A stretch of 64,000 bases of DNA. It comes from Thermomonas paludicola (lineage in GTDB: Bacteria > Pseudomonadota > Gammaproteobacteria > Xanthomonadales > Xanthomonadaceae). Location: the NCBI RefSeq assembly GCF_024498955.1, contig NZ_CP093311.1, positions 1,984,001-2,048,000 of the forward strand, given 5' to 3'. A program made the translations under genes and the position numbers. This document shows positions 32,521 to 41,038 of this stretch, in pieces; position 1 is the first letter of the stretch, and each line of letters opens with the position of its first letter. The notes beneath the pieces are model-generated. The model did no database searches, was not told the origin of the DNA, and saw only the letters and a program-made list of their open reading frames with translations.

Positions 32521-34278
32521 TCAGGGTGCGTCGAGCGGACGGATGGACTCCGGCACGATCTGCGCACCGTGTGACTGCACCAGGCGCTGGATGCCGGGAT
32601 CGGTGACGAAACCGCTTTCGGCCTCGCTCTGGCGAACATCGCGATTGCGCGCGTTGCGCGCATTGGCGGTCTCGCTGCGCGGCTGGCCGGCTTCGAAGCG
32701 AATCTGCACATCCCCTCCCAGCTGCCGCCCCACCGCATCGCAAAGCTGCAGTACCAGGCTTGGCGAGCGCAAGTGCTCCTGTTCCGGCGCCAGCGCCAGC
32801 CGCAGCACGCCGTCGGTGTGTGCCACGAACGCGGCGTTTTCCGCCAGCAACTTTGGGGCGCCACGCAGCCCACAGCGCGCCACCAGCTCCAGCCAGTGTT
32901 CGCTATCGGTGACCAGCAGCGCGCTGCCCACAAAGGCGTTGGCGTTGGGCGCCGGCACTGCATCCACCACGCGTGGCGTGGCGGGCGGCGACGTTTCCAC
33001 GCGCGCGGGTGCCGTATCGGGCGCAGGGGCCGGCATCGGCGGCGGCACCTGCTGCGGTTCTGGCGTCGCCTCCGCCATCGTCGCACGTGCGCGGGCGGCG
33101 GCATCGGCACGCGCCTGCGAAGGCTGCGGCGCACGGTGCGCGGCAGCGGGGTGCGGACGCGGGGCAGCCTGCTGCGACGCGTCGCCGTCGGGCCGGAACG
33201 CCAGCATCCGCAACAGGGTCATCTCGAAGCCGCTGCGCGGACTTGGCGCATAGCCCAGGTCACGACGACCGTTCAGCGCCATCTGGTACCAAAGCTGGAC
33301 CAGCTCGGGGCGCAGCTCCGCCGCCAGTGCATCGACGTCGATGGCATCGCTGCCGACATCCGCAGCGGGCACCAGCTGTTTGACCTGGATGCGGTGCAGC
33401 GCCTGCGAGAACGCATCCAGCACGCCGCCCCAGTCCGGTGAAAAGTCCGCCAACTGCGCGGCCTCGTCCAGCAGACGCGCGCCATCGCCAGCCGCCAGTG
33501 CCGCGAGCAGTGCCTGCACGCGACTGCGATCCACCGTGCCCAGCATCGCCGCCACCGAGATGCCGTCCAGCCCGCCGCCGCCCGCCGCCGAACCGCAATA
33601 GGCAATCGCCTGATCCAGCAGCGACAAGCCGTCGCGCAGGCTGCCATCGGCGGCGCGCGCCAACTGCGCTATCGCATCCTCATCGCAGTCAATGCCTTCC
33701 GCAATCAGGATCCTGCTGATCTGCCCGCGGATCTGCTGCTCATCCAGACGCTTGAGATTGAACTGCAAACAGCGGCTGAGCACCGTGACCAGGAGCTTTT
33801 CCGGATCGGTGGTGGCGAACAGGAACTTGACGTGTTCCGGCGGCTCTTCCAGTGTCTTCAGCAGCGCATTGAACGCCGCCTTCGACAACATGTGCACTTC
33901 GTCGATCAGGTAGACCTTGTAGCGGCCGCGCGACGGCATGTACTGCGCGTTTTCGATCAGCTCGCGGACATTGTCCACGCCGGTATTGGAGGCGGCGTCG
34001 ATCTCCAGCAGGTCGATATAGCGGCCGGCGTCGATGGCCTGGCAGGTCTCGCACTCACCGCAGGGCTCGGCGGAGGTGCCGCGCTCGCAGTTCAGCGACT
34101 TGGCGAAGATGCGGGCAATGGTGGTCTTGCCCACGCCGCGGGTGCCGGTGAACAGGAAGGCGTGATGCACGCGGCCGGTTTCCAGCGCGTTGGTGAGCGC
34201 GCGCACCACGTGCTCCTGCCCGACCAATTCGGCGAAACGCTTGGGGCGCCACTTGCGGGCGAGGACGAGATAGGACAT
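32521..34278 (-). CDS. dnaX: DNA polymerase III subunit tau (gamma/tau)
   Basis: The clamp-loader ATPase that ties the replisome together. Walker A GTRGVGKTT (45-53), zinc ligands C64, C73, C76 and C79, and [22 protein letters not shown] are present. A Pro/Ala-rich linker (about 385-450) leads to the C-terminal tau domains. Length is 585 residues. I see no A-rich slippery heptamer like the E. coli A-AAA-AAG, so a separate gamma protein is not evident. The start MSYLVLARKWRPKRF is the family consensus. Confidence 0.96.
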   Translation of the reverse strand: MSYLVLARKWRPKRFAELVGQEHVVRALTNALETGRVHHAFLFTGTRGVGKTTIARIFAKSLNCERGTSAEPCGECETCQAIDAGRYIDLLEIDAASNTGVDNVRELIENAQYMPSRGRYKVYLIDEVHMLSKAAFNALLKTLEEPPEHVKFLFATTDPEKLLVTVLSRCLQFNLKRLDEQQIRGQISRILIAEGIDCDEDAIAQLARAADGSLRDGLSLLDQAIAYCGSAAGGGGLDGISVAAMLGTVDRSRVQALLAALAAGDGARLLDEAAQLADFSPDWGGVLDAFSQALHRIQVKQLVPAADVGSDAIDVDALAAELRPELVQLWYQMALNGRRDLGYAPSPRSGFEMTLLRMLAFRPDGDASQQAAPRPHPAAAHRAPQPSQARADAAARARATMAEATPEPQQVPPPMPAPAPDTAPARVETSPPATPRVVDAVPAPNANAFVGSALLVTDSEHWLELVARCGLRGAPKLLAENAAFVAHTDGVLRLALAPEQEHLRSPSLVLQLCDAVGRQLGGDVQIRFEAGQPRSETANARNARNRDVRQSEAESGFVTDPGIQRLVQSHGAQIVPESIRPLDAP

Positions 34279-34352
34279 GCCCCATTCTGCCACGCCGCCG
34301 CGACTCGCCCCGGCCCTTGCCCAGGCCAAACCGGCAAGCCCTCACGACTCCC

Positions 34353-34391: not shown

Positions 34392-34484
34392 GGAGAGGTG
34401 TCCGAGCGGTTGAAGGAGCACGCCTGGAAAGTGTGTAAGCGTCTAAACCGCGCTTCGGGGGTTCGAATCCCCCTCTCTCCGCCA
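34392..34484 (+). tRNA. tRNA-Ser(GGA)
   Basis: A complete cloverleaf with the CCA encoded. Acceptor GGAGAGG/CCTCTCC, anticodon stem CACGC/GTGTG, loop CTGGAAA with anticodon GGA at 34426-34428, a long variable arm (class II) and T-arm GGGGGTTCGAATCCCCC. It decodes UCC and UCU. Its own promoter lies just upstream. Confidence 0.97.
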
Positions 34485-34536
34485 GACATGAAAAACGCCC
34501 CCTTGCGGGGCGTTTTTCATGTCTGGCGGAGAGAGG
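34472..34536 (+). terminator. Perfect 30-bp inverted repeat: tRNA-Ser 3' end plus terminator
   Basis: The arm 34472-34501 is exactly complementary to 34507-34536, with a 5-base loop (CTTGC). The inner part AACGCCCC/GGGGCGTT with TTTTT on the far side is a normal intrinsic terminator. The outer part is unusual: the left arm includes the last 13 bases of the mature tRNA (3' acceptor strand and CCA), and the right arm repeats them in inverse order. Confidence 0.85.
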
Positions 34537-34675: not shown

Positions 34676-35947
34676 CTACGCCGCAAACACCGGCCATCGA
34701 TCCACGATTCTGCCGCCGCGCACGATCACCAGGTCGCCGAACTGCAGCAATACCCCTTCGCTGATCTGCGGGCGGAAAAAAACCTGATCGTCCACGCCAA
34801 GCCCGACGCTTGGCGCTGCGTTGACGATCTCCTGATTGGCGCTGTGCCCGAACAGTTCGTTGAACTGCAGGCCTTTTGGCGACGCGTAATCGGCAAGCCA
34901 CCAGCCGCCGTAGATGAAGAAGGTTTCGCGCTGGTTCGGGTCCCACCACGACATCACGCGCGAGCGGTCATCCAGCGCCGGCAGTTCGATCGGGCCGGTC
35001 TTCTTCAGCACCGGGGTGGCGATGAATGCGGCCGGCACGTGCTCCTTCAGCGTCTCGATGTCGTAATGGGTGGGCTTGAGCAGCGCGGTGCCCACGCTGA
35101 TGTCGTTGCTCACGGTTTCGTGCGCGTGCAGGGCGTAGCTGGGGCTGCCGCCGGAATTCAATGTCAGGTCGTCGCGCCATAGCGACGGGTAATCGCGCCG
35201 CGCGACATCGACGAAACCGCGATAGCGCGCCATGGCCTTGCCCAGCAATTCCTGCGCCGAGCCGAGCATCGACGGCACGCCCATGCCCACGTGCGCGTCG
35301 TAGCCCATGAATCCGCTGAATTCCAATTGCTGCGGGTGCGCCGCAATCACGTCCAGCATCGCCTTCAATTCGCGATTGCCGCGTGCGCCGCCACGGTGCA
35401 GGCCGACGTCGATCTCCAGGCTGGCGCGCATTCGCGTGCCCAGCCCGCGCGCCAGTTCGGCGTACTCGCGCAGGCGCTGTGGCGTATCGAACAACCACTG
35501 CAGCTGCCGCGCCGGGTTGAACGGGCCCTTCAGCCCGCGGTAGAAGCGCGCGGCCGCCGCCGCCGGCAGCGGCTTGCCCATCAGCACATCGAATTGCGGA
35601 AACAACGCGGCATCATGGTTGAGGAACGGCTGGTGGAACGACATCAGCCGGTTGCTTTGCGCGCGGCGTGCGATGTACTCGATCAGCATCGGCGACGGCA
35701 ATGATTTTTCGACGATGCGGTATTGCTTGCCGGCAACGCGCAGGGTGCGGGTGACGCGCTCCAGGTTGGCGTCGAGCCGGTCGAGGTCGATCACCATCGC
35801 CGGCTGCATCGGCCCGTTGCGCCTCAGCTCCGCGTTCAGCGCGCGGAAGTATGCCGAATAGGGTTCGCCATGGTCGCCAGGCTTTGCCCACCACAGCGCC
35901 ATCGCCCCCAGACCCAGCGCGCCAGCCACGAACTTGCGACGCTTCAT
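34676..35947 (-). CDS. Tat-exported PLP enzyme of the alanine racemase/D-threonine aldolase fold
   Basis: A 423-residue protein with a twin-arginine-like leader (MKRRKFVAGALGLGAMALWW) and a fold-type III PLP barrel. The N-terminal strand MVIDLDRLDANLERV matches the family; the candidate PLP lysine is K81 in YRIVEKSLPSP, which differs from the usual RPHxKTHK motif. The C-terminal part has HSANQEIVN and GDLVIVRGGRI, as in D-threonine aldolase-like metal and PLP sites. It is annotated in relatives as alanine racemase-like or amino acid deaminase/aldolase. The substrate is unknown. It lies 75 bases after the FAD oxidase gene. Confidence 0.75.
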   Translation of the reverse strand: MKRRKFVAGALGLGAMALWWAKPGDHGEPYSAYFRALNAELRRNGPMQPAMVIDLDRLDANLERVTRTLRVAGKQYRIVEKSLPSPMLIEYIARRAQSNRLMSFHQPFLNHDAALFPQFDVLMGKPLPAAAAARFYRGLKGPFNPARQLQWLFDTPQRLREYAELARGLGTRMRASLEIDVGLHRGGARGNRELKAMLDVIAAHPQQLEFSGFMGYDAHVGMGVPSMLGSAQELLGKAMARYRGFVDVARRDYPSLWRDDLTLNSGGSPSYALHAHETVSNDISVGTALLKPTHYDIETLKEHVPAAFIATPVLKKTGPIELPALDDRSRVMSWWDPNQRETFFIYGGWWLADYASPKGLQFNELFGHSANQEIVNAAPSVGLGVDDQVFFRPQISEGVLLQFGDLVIVRGGRIVDRWPVFAA

Positions 35948-36022
35948 TCCACCTCCCTTCGCGCCATCACGGCACACTGCGCGCCGCAAGCCATCGGCCA
36001 CTGCGCCCGTGAGCGCCGGCCA

Positions 36023-37393
36023 TCAACCCACGCCCAGCACGGAACGCAAGTGTGCGTTGAGGAACTTGCCGGCCGGGTCCAGCGACTCGCGCACGGCCAG
36101 GAACTCCTTCCATCGCGGATACAACGGCGCCAGCAGGCGCGCATTGAGCGTGTGCAGCTTGCCCCAGTGCGGGCGACCGTCGTATTTCCAGAAAATCGGC
36201 TCGATCCGGGCGAAAAAATCATGGTGGTCCATCCGATAGTACTGATGCACCGAAATCGCGCAGGCATCGCGCCCCTGGAACATGGACAGCATCGCGTCGT
36301 CGCGCTTGACGTAGCGATATTCGATGGGGAAAAAGCTGTCCAGCTTTTCGTCGCGGATCTTCTTCATGATCTCGCGCAGGCAGGCAGGCCCCGCCTCGGC
36401 CGGAACCTCGTACTCCATTTCGTTGAAGCGCACGTCGCGCACGTTGGCGAACACCCTGTATGAAGCGTCGATGACATCGGGGAACGACACCGCGTACTTG
36501 ACCAGGAAATTGAGCATTCGCGCATACACGCGCGGCGAATTTTGCCACTCGAGATGGACGCGCTGCAGCAGCGCGACCTTGTCCACATCGCCGCCGGGCT
36601 GCTTGGACAACACGCGCGGGTCGGCGGTTTCATCCATGGTCATCGCCACCGCCACATCCGAATGCAGCAGCACATTCATTTCGAAATGATCGTGCTCGCG
36701 GAGCAGGCGCGGCATGTCCTCCAGCAGTTCTTCGTAGCGTTGCACCCACTCCCGGCGATGCAGCTTGAACGCCGCGCGATTCTGCAGGCGTACCCGCGTC
36801 ACCACGCCGAGCGCGCCCAGCGAGCAGCGCGCAGCGTCGAACACGTGCGGATAGCGCTGCGCGTCGCAGTCAATGGCATCGCCGCTCGCGGTCAGCAGGC
36901 GCAGGCCCACCACCTGGTCGGAGTACGAGCCGAAACGTGGCCCGGTGCCGTGTGTCGAGGTGGCAATGGCGCCGGCCAGCGTCTGGTAGTCGATGTCGGC
37001 CATGTTTGGCAATGCCAAGCCCGCCTGCGCCAACGGGGCGCCCATCTGCGACATCGGCGTGCCTGCCCACCATTCCGACTGCCGGGACTGGGCGTCGTGG
37101 CGAAGCATTCCCTGCAGGTTGCCGAGCGACAGCACGGTGTCGTCGGTGGGCACCAGCGCACTGAACGAATGGCCGGACCCCACTGGCCGCACTGTGCCGG
37201 GGGCGTTGCGCAAGGCGTCGGCCAGCTGCGCCTCGGTGGCCGGTGCGATTCGCGCTGCCGGCAGGCAGGACTGCGCGCCCGACCAGTTGCGCCACGGTAT
37301 CGGCCGGGCCGCGTTCGCCTTCCCCGGCCCCAGGAGACCCAACAGCCCCAGGGCTCCCAATCCTTTGATCAACTCCCGGCGCGTCGATTTCAT
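36023..37393 (-). CDS. Tat-exported FAD-linked oxidase (D-arabinono-1,4-lactone oxidase family)
   Basis: A 456-residue flavoprotein of the VAO family with a twin-arginine leader (STRRELIKGLGALGLLGLLG). The FAD-binding motif RPVGSGHSFSAL (69-80) includes H75, the probable covalent flavin anchor. GALGVVTRVRLQ and the C-terminal HWGKLHTLNARLLAPLYPRW match sugar-lactone and alditol oxidases. It starts 4 bases after the cytochrome c gene, so its electrons may pass to that cytochrome rather than to oxygen. The substrate is unknown; an aldonolactone or alditol is the family-based guess. Confidence 0.82.
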   Translation of the reverse strand: MKSTRRELIKGLGALGLLGLLGPGKANAARPIPWRNWSGAQSCLPAARIAPATEAQLADALRNAPGTVRPVGSGHSFSALVPTDDTVLSLGNLQGMLRHDAQSRQSEWWAGTPMSQMGAPLAQAGLALPNMADIDYQTLAGAIATSTHGTGPRFGSYSDQVVGLRLLTASGDAIDCDAQRYPHVFDAARCSLGALGVVTRVRLQNRAAFKLHRREWVQRYEELLEDMPRLLREHDHFEMNVLLHSDVAVAMTMDETADPRVLSKQPGGDVDKVALLQRVHLEWQNSPRVYARMLNFLVKYAVSFPDVIDASYRVFANVRDVRFNEMEYEVPAEAGPACLREIMKKIRDEKLDSFFPIEYRYVKRDDAMLSMFQGRDACAISVHQYYRMDHHDFFARIEPIFWKYDGRPHWGKLHTLNARLLAPLYPRWKEFLAVRESLDPAGKFLNAHLRSVLGVG

Positions 37394-37397
37394 CAGG

Positions 37398-37763
37398 TCA
37401 CTGCTCCAGCCGCGTGCCGGACATGTAGCCGATCAAGGCGGCGTATTGTTCCTCGCTGCAGTCTGCGCATGCGCCCATTGGCGGCATCCCGTTGAACCCG
37501 TTGATGGTGTGTTCCAGCAGCATCTCGCGCCCCTTGCCCATGCGCGGCGCCCACGCGCCACGATCACCCGCCAGCGGCGCACCGCTCGCCGGATTGGCGT
37601 GGCAGGTGGCGCAGCTTCGCGCATAGATCGGTTGCAGTTCGGCCGCAAGCGCCGGCGGGGCCTGCGCCGCGACTGCCGTTTTTTCCTGGCACCCCGTCAC
37701 TGGCAGCAGCAACGCCCACACCATCGCGAGCGCAAACAAGGGGCGGTTGAAGAATGGCAGCAT
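37398..37763 (-). CDS. Cytochrome c5-like lipoprotein
   Basis: A 121-residue c-type cytochrome. The signal peptide ends in VTGC, giving a lipidated C25. The haem site is CATCH (51-55) and the axial Met is M93 or M96 in NGMPPMGAC. C99 and C102 should form the disulfide typical of cytochrome c5. The start at 37763 puts the hydrophobic segment at the N-terminus; an ATG 39 bases earlier is possible. The tight link to the FAD oxidase suggests that it is the electron acceptor. Confidence 0.87.
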   Translation of the reverse strand: MLPFFNRPLFALAMVWALLLPVTGCQEKTAVAAQAPPALAAELQPIYARSCATCHANPASGAPLAGDRGAWAPRMGKGREMLLEHTINGFNGMPPMGACADCSEEQYAALIGYMSGTRLEQ

Positions 37764-37856
37764 CAGAGAGAAGCCCGGACAGCGTTGGCCGTACTTCACC
37801 ATGCACCGCAGCGAAGGGACAGGGGCTTGCGGCGGCCAATTCCGGCGACATGGCGC

Positions 37857-38876
37857 CTAGCGTGCCTGGCGCAGCGCGCCCGGCGCCTGGCCAAGCCAGC
37901 GCTTGCACGCACGTCGGAACGCCCGAGCATCGGAAAACCCGAGGCGTCGGCTGGCTTCGGCGACGGTCACCCCCGCGTTCTCCAGCAGGTCGCGCGCCGC
38001 CTGTGCACGCACACGGTCGCGAATCCCGCGAAACGAGGCACCCGCTTCGCTCAACCGCCGACGCAGGGTCCTGGGGCTGAGTTCCAGCGCGCGCGCCAAC
38101 TGCTCGACCGACAGCCGCTGCTGGCCCGGCCGCAGCAGCAGCTGCTCGACAGCGGCCACCGTGCCCAGCGCCTCCAGCTGTGCGTGCCGCTCCAGTTGCG
38201 CGCACAACTGCGCCGACAGGGCGGCGTCGTGACGCGGCATCGGCCTGTCCAGCCAGCCGGGGGCAATCACGAGCACATTGCGACGGCTGCCGAAGCGCGG
38301 CTCGCAGCCAAACAGCTCACGGTAACGGTGGAGGTGGTCAGGCGCCGGGTAGGCGAGCTCCAGCGACTGCAGCACCACCGGCTCGCCCAGCTCGACGCGA
38401 AACAACTCCAGCACGCTGGCGAGCAGCTCCTCGATCAAGAACATCGCCACCTGCGCGTCTCGCAGGCGCGGTCGGACTTCCAGCATCGCGCCGGACGCCG
38501 ACGGCACCAGTTCGATATCGACCAGCGCGCCGCCGGCGGGGTAATACCGCCCCCCCAGCTGCACCGCTTCGCCAACGGTCGCCGCAGTCACGAATGCCTG
38601 CCCCAGCAGCCCGAAGCTGGCCAAGCCCTGCCCCAGCCCAATCTCCAACCCCAGATCGGCCCGCGCAGTCAGCTGCAGCGCGCGACGGATCATCCTCCAC
38701 GCCTGCCGGTTGGACACCAGCGCGCCCGCGCGCAACGCCTGCACGTCCAGCCCAAGCCCTGCGTACAGGCGCTCGGGTGCGATGCCGAAGGCGGCGACTC
38801 GCTCGCACAGCGTGACCAGCAGGTAGGGAATGACGTCCGGTGCGAACTGGCTGGAATCAAGCTTGTGCCGCGACAT
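37857..38876 (-). CDS. AraC-type transcriptional regulator (OruR/ArgR-like)
   Basis: A 339-residue regulator with an N-terminal ligand-binding domain of the Arabinose_bd type (about 20-200) and a C-terminal double helix-turn-helix (LSVEQLARALELSPRTLRRR; VTVAEASRRLGFSDARAFRR). It is the first gene of the minus-strand group and lies 93 bases before the cytochrome gene. A role in controlling the oxidase-PLP cluster is likely from position, but not shown. An in-frame ATG 66 bases upstream would start outside the conserved region. The upstream gap 38877-39068 holds an AT-rich patch near 38950-38972, a possible promoter or operator. Confidence 0.87.
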   Translation of the reverse strand: MSRHKLDSSQFAPDVIPYLLVTLCERVAAFGIAPERLYAGLGLDVQALRAGALVSNRQAWRMIRRALQLTARADLGLEIGLGQGLASFGLLGQAFVTAATVGEAVQLGGRYYPAGGALVDIELVPSASGAMLEVRPRLRDAQVAMFLIEELLASVLELFRVELGEPVVLQSLELAYPAPDHLHRYRELFGCEPRFGSRRNVLVIAPGWLDRPMPRHDAALSAQLCAQLERHAQLEALGTVAAVEQLLLRPGQQRLSVEQLARALELSPRTLRRRLSEAGASFRGIRDRVRAQAARDLLENAGVTVAEASRRLGFSDARAFRRACKRWLGQAPGALRQAR

Positions 38877-39068: not shown

Positions 39069-39175
39069 GTGGCCCCGTCGGCCCCTCGCGACGCTAGGTC
39101 GAAAATCCCGCCAGGGCCGGAAGGCAGCAACGGTATCGACTGATGCGGGCGCCGAGGTCAGCCGGCGGGGCCGCC
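39069..39175 (+). ncRNA. ffs: Signal recognition particle 4.5S RNA
   Basis: A bacterial small SRP RNA. The 15-bp terminal helix pairs 39069-39083 with 39161-39175, allowing G-U pairs. The apical Ffh-binding site reads CAGGGCCGGAAGGCAGCAACGG, here given in part: the GGAA tetraloop with its AGCA internal loop at about 39113-39133. Ffh binds it to target membrane proteins. In E. coli-like genomes ffs is often near dnaX; here dnaX is 4.8 kb away. Ends are judged from pairing and may shift a few bases. Confidence 0.9.
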
Positions 39176-39232: not shown

Positions 39233-39964
39233 CTAGTACCCCAGCTTCCAGGCAGCGTCGTACGCCGCGCGCAACTGCTCGAACCCTGCCTCCGCCTGCT
39301 GCCCGCGCAGCTTGCGCAGTGAACGCAGCAGGCGTTGCAGGTTGCCCTCGCGCCAGCCTGTCGCGGGAATGCGCAAGCAGGACTGGTCGAAGTCGATCAT
39401 CCAGCCGCGCCCGTGTTCGTCGAACAAGATGTTGTAGGCATTGAGGTCGGCGTGGTCCAGCCCGCCGCGATGGAAACGGGCAATCAGTTGGCCTGTCGCC
39501 TCCCACGGCGCCTCACCCGCGTCTGCCAGCGCCGCCAGCGAGCGCACGCCATGCAGGCGCTGCATCAAGATCGCAGCGCGATAATGCATGCCTTCGCGGC
39601 GATACCAGGCCGCGAATGGCATTGGCACCGGCAAGTTCTTCGCCCGCAACACGCGCAGCAGGCGAAACTCGGCAAAGCTGCGGACCCGGTTGATCCCGCG
39701 CCACAGGTGCGCGTCCCGGCTGAACTTCGCCGCCAGCCCGCCGCGCAAATAGTGGCGCAGCAGCGCATCCCCCTGGCCAAAATCGATGAACCACGCGCCA
39801 CCGCGCCCGCCTTCGGAGACCGGCTGCGCCGCGCCCCCCCAGTGCTGCAAGTCGAACCAGGCAGATTCGGGTTGCCGCAACTGGGTGCGGTCGAACAGAA
39901 TCGCACCATAGCCGCGCGTGTCGCGGAACGGCGTCAGGTGCTCGTTGGCGTCGAATCCTGTCAT
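39233..39964 (-). CDS. kdkA: 3-deoxy-D-manno-octulosonic acid kinase
   Basis: A protein-kinase-like enzyme that phosphorylates Kdo in the lipopolysaccharide inner core. The 243-residue protein has a catalytic loop [15 protein letters not shown] and metal site [10 protein letters not shown] Xanthomonas-type core with one phosphorylated Kdo fits this gene. I chose the ATG at 39964; one at 40000 would overlap the divergent glycosyltransferase. Only 21 bases separate the two start codons, so each promoter must lie within the other gene or be shared. Confidence 0.87.
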
Positions 39965-39985
39965 TTCTGCGAGTGTAGCAATCGC

Positions 39986-41038
39986 GTGCAAAAAGCCCAT
40001 GCCCCGCGCTCCATCTGCCTGCTGCGCCTATCGGCATTGGGCGACGTCACCCACGTGCTGCCGTTGCTGCACACCCTGCGCGACGCTTGGCCCAACGTGG
40101 CACTGAGCTGGATCATCGGCAAGGCCGAGCACCGCCTGCTGGCGGGCTTGCCCGGCGTGCGCTTCGTCGAATACGACAAGGCTTCGGGCTTTGCCGGCAT
40201 GCGCACCCTTCGCCGCGAACTGGGCCAGCGCTTCGATGCCTTGCTGCAGCTGCAGGTGTCGGCACGCGCCAACCTGCTGTCCGCATTCGTCCCTGCGCAA
40301 CGGCGGATCGGCTACGACCGCGCGCGCAGCAAGGAAGGCCACGGCCTGTTCATCAACGAGCGCATTCCCGACCGGTCCGGCGGTCACGTGCTGGATGCGA
40401 TCGGCAGCTTCTGCGAGCCGCTGGGGCTGACCCGCACGCATGTCAGCTGGAAACTGCCCGTCCCCGAAGCGGCGCATGCGTGGGCGCACGCGCAGTGGGA
40501 TGAGGACGGCCGGCACACGCTGATGGTGTCGCCCTGCTCCAGCCACGCGCTGCGCAACTGGCGGGCAGACCGCTACGCCGCGCTGGCCGACCATGCCATC
40601 GCCCAGGGCTGGCGGGTGGTGCTGTGCGGCGGGCGCAGCGAACTCGAACGGGCCACAGGCACTGCCATCCTGGCCGCCATGCGCGAGCATGGCCGCGTGC
40701 TTGACCTGATTGGCAAGGACACGCTGAAACAGTTGCCGGCACTGCTGGCCCGCGCCGACCTGCTGGTGACGCCGGACTCCGGCCCGATGCACATCGCCAA
40801 CGCGATGGGCAGCAAGGTGCTGGGCCTGCATGCCGCCACCAACCCGGAACGCAGCGGCCCCTACTCCGACCGCCGCTTCTGCGTGAACCGCTATGACGAC
40901 GCGGCGCGCAAGTACCGCGGCATGCCCGGCTCGGATCTGAAATGGGGAACCAAGATCGAAGCCGATGGCGTGATGGACCTGGTCACCGTGGCCGATGCGA
41001 TCGCCGCGTTCGAACGCTTCCGCGCGCGCCACGCCTGA
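39986..41038 (+). CDS. Glycosyltransferase family 9 (lipopolysaccharide heptosyltransferase-like)
   Basis: A 350-residue GT-B enzyme. The N-terminal [15 protein letters not shown] is the GT9 signature. The C-terminal nucleotide-sugar site contains [20 protein letters not shown] and the [12 protein letters not shown] loop. It probably adds heptose or a related sugar to the inner core after KdkA. The only fitting start is a GTG at 39986; the ATG at 39999 is in another frame. Its stop is directly followed by that of DUF6165 on the other strand. Confidence 0.87.

Follow-up and report, generated by a model that had tools for sequence, protein, structure and literature searches.

A probable sphBCD-type sphingoid-base operon with a SphR-like regulator in Thermomonas paludicola

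The genes PA5328-PA5326 of Pseudomonas aeruginosa (sphB, sphC, and sphD) have been linked to the sensing of antimicrobial sphingosine lipids and their breakdown beyond the inner membrane, and SphR (PA5324), an AraC-family regulator, binds sphingosine and activates sphA, sphBCD, and cerN (PMC3900636). Both sphB and sphC are required for the loss of sphingosine from P. aeruginosa cultures and for normal growth with sphingosine, and a growth role of sph genes was also shown for strains PA14, Pf-5, and Pf01, and not for WCS365 (PMC11893366). Export of SphC to the periplasm by the twin-arginine translocation (Tat) route has been demonstrated in P. aeruginosa (PMC6085387, whose main text does not include PA5326, i.e. 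SphD). Here, we describe four genes in a 64,000-nucleotide stretch of Thermomonas paludicola DNA (contig NZ_CP093311.1, positions 1,984,001 to 2,048,000; the window) and propose, with considerable confidence, that they form a SphBCD operon with a SphR-like regulator, the substrate class of which is a sphingoid base. The genes are as follows.

37857..38876, minus strand: SphR-like AraC-family regulator, 339 amino acids (PF12625 and HTH_18)
37398..37763, minus strand: SphB-like monohaem cytochrome c lipoprotein, 121 amino acids (PF13442; a CATCH haem motif and an LPVTGC lipobox, both seen in the sequence)
36023..37393, minus strand: SphC-like flavin adenine dinucleotide (FAD) oxidase of the ALO family with a Tat leader (PF04030 and PF01565; TIGR01679 above cut-off)
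34676..35947, minus strand: SphD-like fold-type III pyridoxal phosphate (PLP) enzyme with a Tat-type N-terminus, 423 amino acids (PF01168)

An earlier reading of this DNA (the original prediction) had described four same-strand genes at 34676-38876, encoding an AraC regulator, a cytochrome c lipoprotein, a Tat FAD oxidase, and a Tat PLP enzyme, and all four are present as it stated. By their coordinates, the genes are separated by 93 bases (regulator to cytochrome), 4 bases (cytochrome to oxidase), and 75 bases (oxidase to PLP enzyme). The twin-arginine leaders can be read at both enzyme N-termini (MKSTRRELIKG... for the oxidase and MKRRKFVAG... for the PLP enzyme). A search for promoter-like sites returned none, and one terminator-like site was found, on the opposite strand within the PLP gene, which is fewer than in shuffled sequences.

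Over 459 columns, the window oxidase shares 60% identity with P. aeruginosa SphC (P0165; its database name is FAD-linked oxidoreductase, and it was taken as SphC because its first 30 residues are those of the PA5327 leader printed in PMC6085387). The sph locus of Pseudomonas otitidis (L064) stood in for P. aeruginosa SphB, SphD, and SphR; as published for PAO1, a PF13557 protein and an AraC protein come after the sph enzymes in it. Compared with this locus, the window cytochrome is 59% identical over 94 columns and the window PLP enzyme 61% identical over 425 columns. Because P. aeruginosa SphR binds sphingosine, SphC is exported by Tat, and sphBC is needed for sphingosine loss, a sphingoid base is the likely substrate, rather than a sugar lactone or a free D-amino acid.

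The original prediction had instead placed a D-amino acid, amino sugar, lactone, or alditol outside the membrane as the substrate, with the PLP enzyme acting first and the flavoprotein oxidising its product, and knew of no described pathway with this set of genes. Such a scheme takes at face value the family names given by Pfam and NCBIfam (ALO, lactone oxidase; Ala_racemase_N). Among the oxidase models, however, only the general TIGR01679 scores above its cut-off, the sugar-lactone and GLDH models falling below theirs, and in Pseudomonas, sphingosine induces the operon, and the operon is required for sphingosine to be lost (PMC3900636; PMC11893366). The sphBCD operon is a described pathway (PMC3900636; PMC5150637; PMC11893366), the described substrate class being sphingoid bases, and we have rejected a lactone, alditol, or D-amino-acid pathway as the leading reading; a route in which the PLP enzyme acts first and an extracellular D-amino acid, amino sugar, or sugar lactone is oxidised is in our estimation highly improbable.

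Does this gene set occur elsewhere? In genome contigs, 246 relatives of the PLP enzyme were found, and gene order was surveyed by tblastn with fixed distance rules in the best 80 loci, which are mostly from Pseudomonas and so not independent. Cytochrome, oxidase, and PLP genes lie in that order on one strand in 73 of these 80 loci; the gene set is more than a chance association. In one locus (L078) the oxidase was found and the cytochrome was undetected, and in six (L003, on a short contig, L012, L014, L043, L053, and L081) neither was found in the fetched stretch. One of the six, L012, is the unlinked PLP gene of Stagnimonas aquatica, which yet has a SphC homologue in the protein database (P0208). 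SphA-like and SphR-like genes accompany the enzymes in 25 of the 73 ordered loci, a SphR-like gene without SphA in 5, and neither in 43. The co-occurrence of the four families, which the original prediction had put forward for survey, was strongly positive for the three enzymes, though a regulator gene was seen in no more than 30 of the 80 fetched stretches. It had also named independent transcription of the genes as a refutation; in P. aeruginosa, sphB, sphC, and sphD are co-regulated by microarray (PMC3900636; PMC5150637).

As for the regulator, the top match of the window AraC protein in the P. otitidis genome is the SphR of the sph locus (E 1.5e-51; next match 9.4e-37), to which it is 36% identical. 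In the reverse search of its own genome with P. otitidis SphR, the window gene is the top match (2.2e-51), with L091 close behind (3.4e-49). In a midpoint-rooted tree of 48 rows (with long branches flagged by the program), the window regulator pairs with that of L002 (100/99), the locus of a genome of the same genus, G465. The pair sits inside a seven-row group of the same order (100/99), which together with 28 Pseudomonas rows makes up a 35-row group (95/87), from which L091 and the seven P. otitidis paralogues are excluded. Hence the window regulator shares descent with SphR. The AraC rows from L007, L010, L041, L057, and L078 are placed elsewhere in the tree, and an AraC gene near these enzymes is therefore not always a SphR. 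A Cupriavidus strain is described as being without a strong sphR homologue (PMC13293705).

The double half-site of SphR (TGNCCSNNRNNSNCC, with a spacing of 6-8 bases) was tested upstream of sphB, where it scores 16-18 in all seven Pseudomonas loci tried and 13-14 in all five tried from other genera (L002, L004, L005, L007, and L057). In the window, the best candidate upstream of the cytochrome gene is the following.

37803..37838, minus strand: candidate regulatory element, with one half-site agreeing with the SphR consensus at 8 of its 9 specified bases and the second half without a match

A stretch around this element, upstream of the cytochrome gene, is common to the window and to Thermomonas L002 (35 of 45 positions, by hand count on a two-sequence alignment), which is only suggestive.

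Several findings weigh against the identification as a SphBCD operon. The reverse best match of SphR is nearly tied (174.7 vs 167.6 bits). The double box upstream of the cytochrome scores 14/18, a value of at least 14 being reached by 201 of 400 random window stretches. The SphA family (PF13557) has no matches in the window's own genome (G000), while the controls G119 and G454 were positive, and a SphA protein search of that genome was also empty. The neutral ceramidase gene cerN was not found in it by a method that detects cerN in one of six genomes checked (G455), and the Pseudomonas genomes G119, G451, and G452, which have sphBCD, are likewise without detected cerN. In 43 of the 80 loci, the three enzymes occur without a SphR-like or SphA-like gene in the fetched stretch. 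For Pseudomonas itself, PMC11893366 states that direct action of SphB and SphC on sphingosine is unproven and their product unknown; under the conditions used there, cells could do without sphD, and growth did not depend on sphR. In P. fluorescens WCS365, which is without sphD there, the loss of sphBC had no phenotype (PMC11893366), and gene presence therefore does not predict role. The function proposed for Thermomonas would be one carried over from Pseudomonas experiments.

Some of these findings would be expected of a paralogous operon with like enzymes and a different inducer and substrate, serving another amphipathic amino-alcohol. The missing SphA-family gene and SphR box and the modest identity of the regulator to SphR (only 36%) all point that way, and PMC11893366 cautions that it is difficult to tell whether homologues of sphB and sphC are orthologues. 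Set against this, the identity of the three enzymes to their Pseudomonas counterparts is 59-61%, with gene order kept, as compared with 42% for a doubtful Caulobacter SphC (PMC11893366), and the regulator groups with SphR. We thus regard a paralogous operon as improbable and favour a SphBCD operon acting on sphingoid bases.

In such an operon, what might each protein do? A sphingoid base (sphingosine, sphinganine, phytosphingosine, or kin) would reach the cell and induce the genes via the AraC protein. SphC, loaded with FAD and exported by Tat, would then oxidise this base, the C1 primary alcohol being the most likely site, since the ALO/alditol oxidase family attacks terminal alcohols; a C1 site is also suggested in PMC3900636. 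SphC would hand its electrons to SphB, the cytochrome anchored by its lipid, from which they would enter the respiratory chain. The first of these transfers has been proposed for Pseudomonas (PMC11893366), and the route from flavoprotein to lipidated cytochrome within a linked exported set in the original prediction is the same as this published proposal. Upon formation of a C1 aldehyde or acid, C2 would become the D (2R) centre of a beta-hydroxy-alpha-amino acid, which would suit a PLP enzyme of the D-threonine aldolase branch. Oxidation thus probably precedes the PLP step, the reverse of the order first supposed, and we give C1 oxidation followed by aldolase chemistry about an even chance.

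A G[SA][GA]HS motif is found in 73 of 74 oxidase relatives, and the FAD of the window oxidase is predicted to be probably His-linked through the GSGHS histidine. The Tat pattern RR.[FLIVMA], a simple pattern for which no null was computed, is found in 72 of 74 oxidase relatives (the two misses, L004 and L074, have RR with W at the hydrophobic position) and in 79 of 80 PLP-enzyme relatives. All 73 cytochrome relatives have CxxCH, and 57 of them also have a lipobox-like pattern. Of the earlier proposal that both enzymes are exported folded through twin-arginine leaders, the leaders stand, as does Tat export of SphC in P. aeruginosa (PMC6085387); export of the window proteins is predicted from their motifs. 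The leader of the PLP enzyme has no obvious cleavage site by eye and may stay as a membrane anchor.

The PLP enzyme had also been credited with a changed lysine motif (VEKSLPSP). This was a misreading, VEKSLPSP being the signature of the whole PLP family, with lysine K81 invariant in 48 of 48 and 15 of 15 aligned sequences. An unusual or lost PLP lysine was accordingly rejected: K81 aligns with the lysine of 4v15, 7dib, 3gwq, and 3llx, and alignments to 6qkb shift it by a gap. In an AlphaFold2 model (mean predicted local distance difference test score 89.5), the closest folds are D-threonine aldolase (DTA) and beta-hydroxyaspartate aldolase. K81, R185, and Y216 are invariant in the aligned PLP-family sequences and match Lys59, Arg157, and Tyr187 around the cofactor of the DTA known as AxDTA, residues whose roles are given in PMC4401734.

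Other features of SphD count against the aldolase step. The catalytic base of DTA, His193, is not conserved, the aligned residue being M222 in the window and M, L, K, or R in other rows (alignment to 4v15). For the DTA metal ligands His347 and Asp349, the counterparts appear to be I395, a position with I or Q in most relatives, and the invariant E397, a reading that rests on a weak C-terminal alignment to 6qkb (3.6 bits) and a conserved RP...E stretch; the PLP family is apparently without the ligand His347. With the base missing and this ligand apparently missing, the aldolase step could therefore be wrong. In addition, C1 oxidation of (2S,3R)-sphingosine, when the stereochemistry is worked by hand, yields a 2R (D) beta-hydroxy amino acid with a (2R,3R) relation. 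AxDTA is syn-diastereospecific, with docking favouring (2R,3S) over (2R,3R) (PMC4401734), which counts against a plain DTA-like fit.

The same lack of the base histidine and, seemingly, of the metal-ligand histidine would sit well with a different chemistry for the same operon and substrate class, in which SphC oxidises the allylic secondary alcohol at C3 to give a 3-keto sphingoid base and SphD catalyses something other than aldol cleavage, such as elimination or C2 racemisation. A short-chain dehydrogenase gene adjoins the PLP gene in L107, its best NCBIfam match being 3-ketodihydrosphingosine reductase (314.7 bits, short of the cut-off of 400), and the dispensability of sphD (PMC11893366) is also in keeping with C3 oxidation. 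Against C3 oxidation, the locus has aldehyde dehydrogenase genes as neighbours in both L112 and L105, which fit aldehyde release better. ALO/alditol oxidases act on terminal alcohols, and a xylitol oxidase is among the Protein Data Bank relatives. We consider C3 oxidation unlikely.

The neighbourhoods of related loci offer further clues to the chemistry. A glycoside hydrolase family 1 (GH1) beta-glucosidase gene and a major facilitator superfamily (MFS) transporter gene lie between sphC and sphD in L129/L141 and L002/L136, and before sphD in L003. They also lie beside the locus, on the other strand, in two Rhodanobacteraceae genomes, G226 (L142, with L105) and G427 (L143).

L002:5367-7987, L129:726-3337, L003:1-2087, L142:1919-4530, L143:1456-4079: GH1 and MFS gene pair

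The window cluster is without the beta-glucosidase, the transporter, or the other extras of its relatives. In L143 (6796-8694), an Exo_endo_phos protein (PF03372) is encoded just downstream of the SphD-like gene; the PF03372 superfamily includes neutral sphingomyelinases. Loci L105-L108 have regulator, oxidase, and PLP genes, and no cytochrome detectable by tblastn with that of the window. The L105 frames have no twin-arginine leader by eye, and an aldehyde dehydrogenase gene lies divergently beside the L105 regulator, L107 holding a similar frame. Distant SphD relatives lie near a sphingosine-1-phosphate (S1P)-lyase-like protein (in L109 only), penicillin-amidase-family proteins, and an aldehyde dehydrogenase (L109:534-1970, L109:6441-8849, L112:3940-5379, L112:6571-8937). 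We tentatively suggest, as a possibility less likely than not, that a wider Lysobacterales sphingolipid-scavenging island including GH1 and MFS has the sph operon at its core, that the natural substrate may be glucosylated plant or fungal sphingoid bases, that SphD is a new metal-independent PLP enzyme acting on a D-configured, C1-oxidised base, and that a cytosolic, cytochrome-free form may exist in Rhodanobacteraceae.

The cluster is flanked by two RNA genes.

34392..34484, plus strand: tRNA-Ser(gga), one flank of the cluster site; adjoins the signal recognition particle (SRP) RNA in same-genus genomes without the cluster
39075..39171, plus strand: bacterial small SRP RNA (RF00169), the other flank of the site

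The site lies in a conserved frame (window 32521-34329 and 39233-41038): dnaX bounds it on one side, and beyond its other side are kdkA, which encodes a Kdo kinase, and a gene that by eye resembles one for a heptosyltransferase; kdkA was found in all 21 genus genomes, the window's own included. The cluster region was fetched for 12 of the other 20 genus genomes, and the cluster adjoins the SRP RNA in three of these (L129, L135, where the contig ends in the oxidase gene, and L136). In L131, L133, L134, and L139, no cluster separates the tRNA-Ser from the SRP RNA; the two are 40-71 bases apart and flanked by dnaX and kdkA. The L140 locus resembles these four, but its kdkA is 4.4 kb away. The remaining four (L130, L132, L137, and L138) are rearranged or missing one flank in the stretch, and no cluster was seen. 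The PLP gene was found in 1 of 119 genomes of a family sample (the window's own) and in 13 of 398 of an order sample (two of them weak); G459, G465, and G467 are not among the matches of either sample. Given its presence in 3 of 12 genus regions and its rarity in the family and order samples, the cluster is patchily inserted at the site between tRNA-Ser and SRP RNA, only some members of the genus having it. Its guanine-plus-cytosine content does not mark it as foreign.

Integrase-family proteins are encoded close to the L141 tRNA and, in L002, on the downstream side of sphD, the L141 integrase score being below the Pfam cut-off and its DUF6538 score above. In L141 (1017-7625; G467), about 7 kb separate tRNA-Ser from sphD, beginning with this DUF6538/integrase-like protein and including an arsR/arsC/aquaporin-like set by eye. 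In the window, a perfect 30-base inverted repeat with a 5-base loop (34472-34536) has a first arm that includes the 3' end of tRNA-Ser(gga); by eye, it was not seen directly after the tRNA in L131, L133, L134, L139, and L140.

Mammalian epithelia carry sphingoid bases as antimicrobial lipids, plants release them into the rhizosphere, and the product of SphB and SphC and the role of SphD are stated as open (PMC11893366). The bacterial destruction of sphingoid bases is only partly known, and the window places a probable system for it in an environmental genus outside Pseudomonas. In the Lysobacter, Stenotrophomonas, and Xanthomonas literature, sphBCD was named only in Pseudomonas papers among the matches listed, which is no proof of absence. 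The clues from relatives (aldehyde dehydrogenases, a beta-glucosidase with a transporter, and a form without detected cytochrome) make the chemistry testable. A D-amino acid would result from C1 oxidation of sphingosine, in keeping with the D-specific fold of SphD, and what remains of interest is the chemistry of SphD and the glucosidase link.

Among enzymes of known structure, xylitol oxidase (2vfr) and an FAD-binding protein (8ot8) of the ALO family share with the window oxidase the FAD domain with its GSGHS motif and a C-terminal stretch. The matches do not span the middle, and the window protein differs in its Tat leader and its partner cytochrome. Like SphD, D-threonine aldolase and beta-hydroxyaspartate aldolase are fold-type III PLP enzymes, and the window enzyme keeps the Lys, Tyr, and Arg of DTA, whereas identity is only 16-20% and the window enzyme has an export-type N-terminus. 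The S1P lyase pathway would share with the operon a long-chain aldehyde as end product if SphD is an aldolase; S1P lyase itself belongs to a different PLP family and takes a phosphorylated base as its substrate. Only weak S1P lyase matches were found in the window's own genome (E 1.6e-11 and 1e-5, to L117/L118), and these were not taken as lyases.

The closest system is the sphBCD operon of P. aeruginosa (PA5328-PA5326, with PA5324). The two have in common the three enzymes in the same order and strand, an AraC regulator of the same clade, and, by sequence motif in the window, a Tat leader on SphC and a lipoprotein cytochrome. They differ in that the window regulator lies directly upstream of the cytochrome gene and not beyond sphA, the window genome is without a detected SphA-family gene or significant SphR box, and the cluster is placed between tRNA-Ser and SRP RNA. 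Thus, the pathway is one already known, and the Thermomonas cluster is a version of it with altered regulation and neighbourhood.

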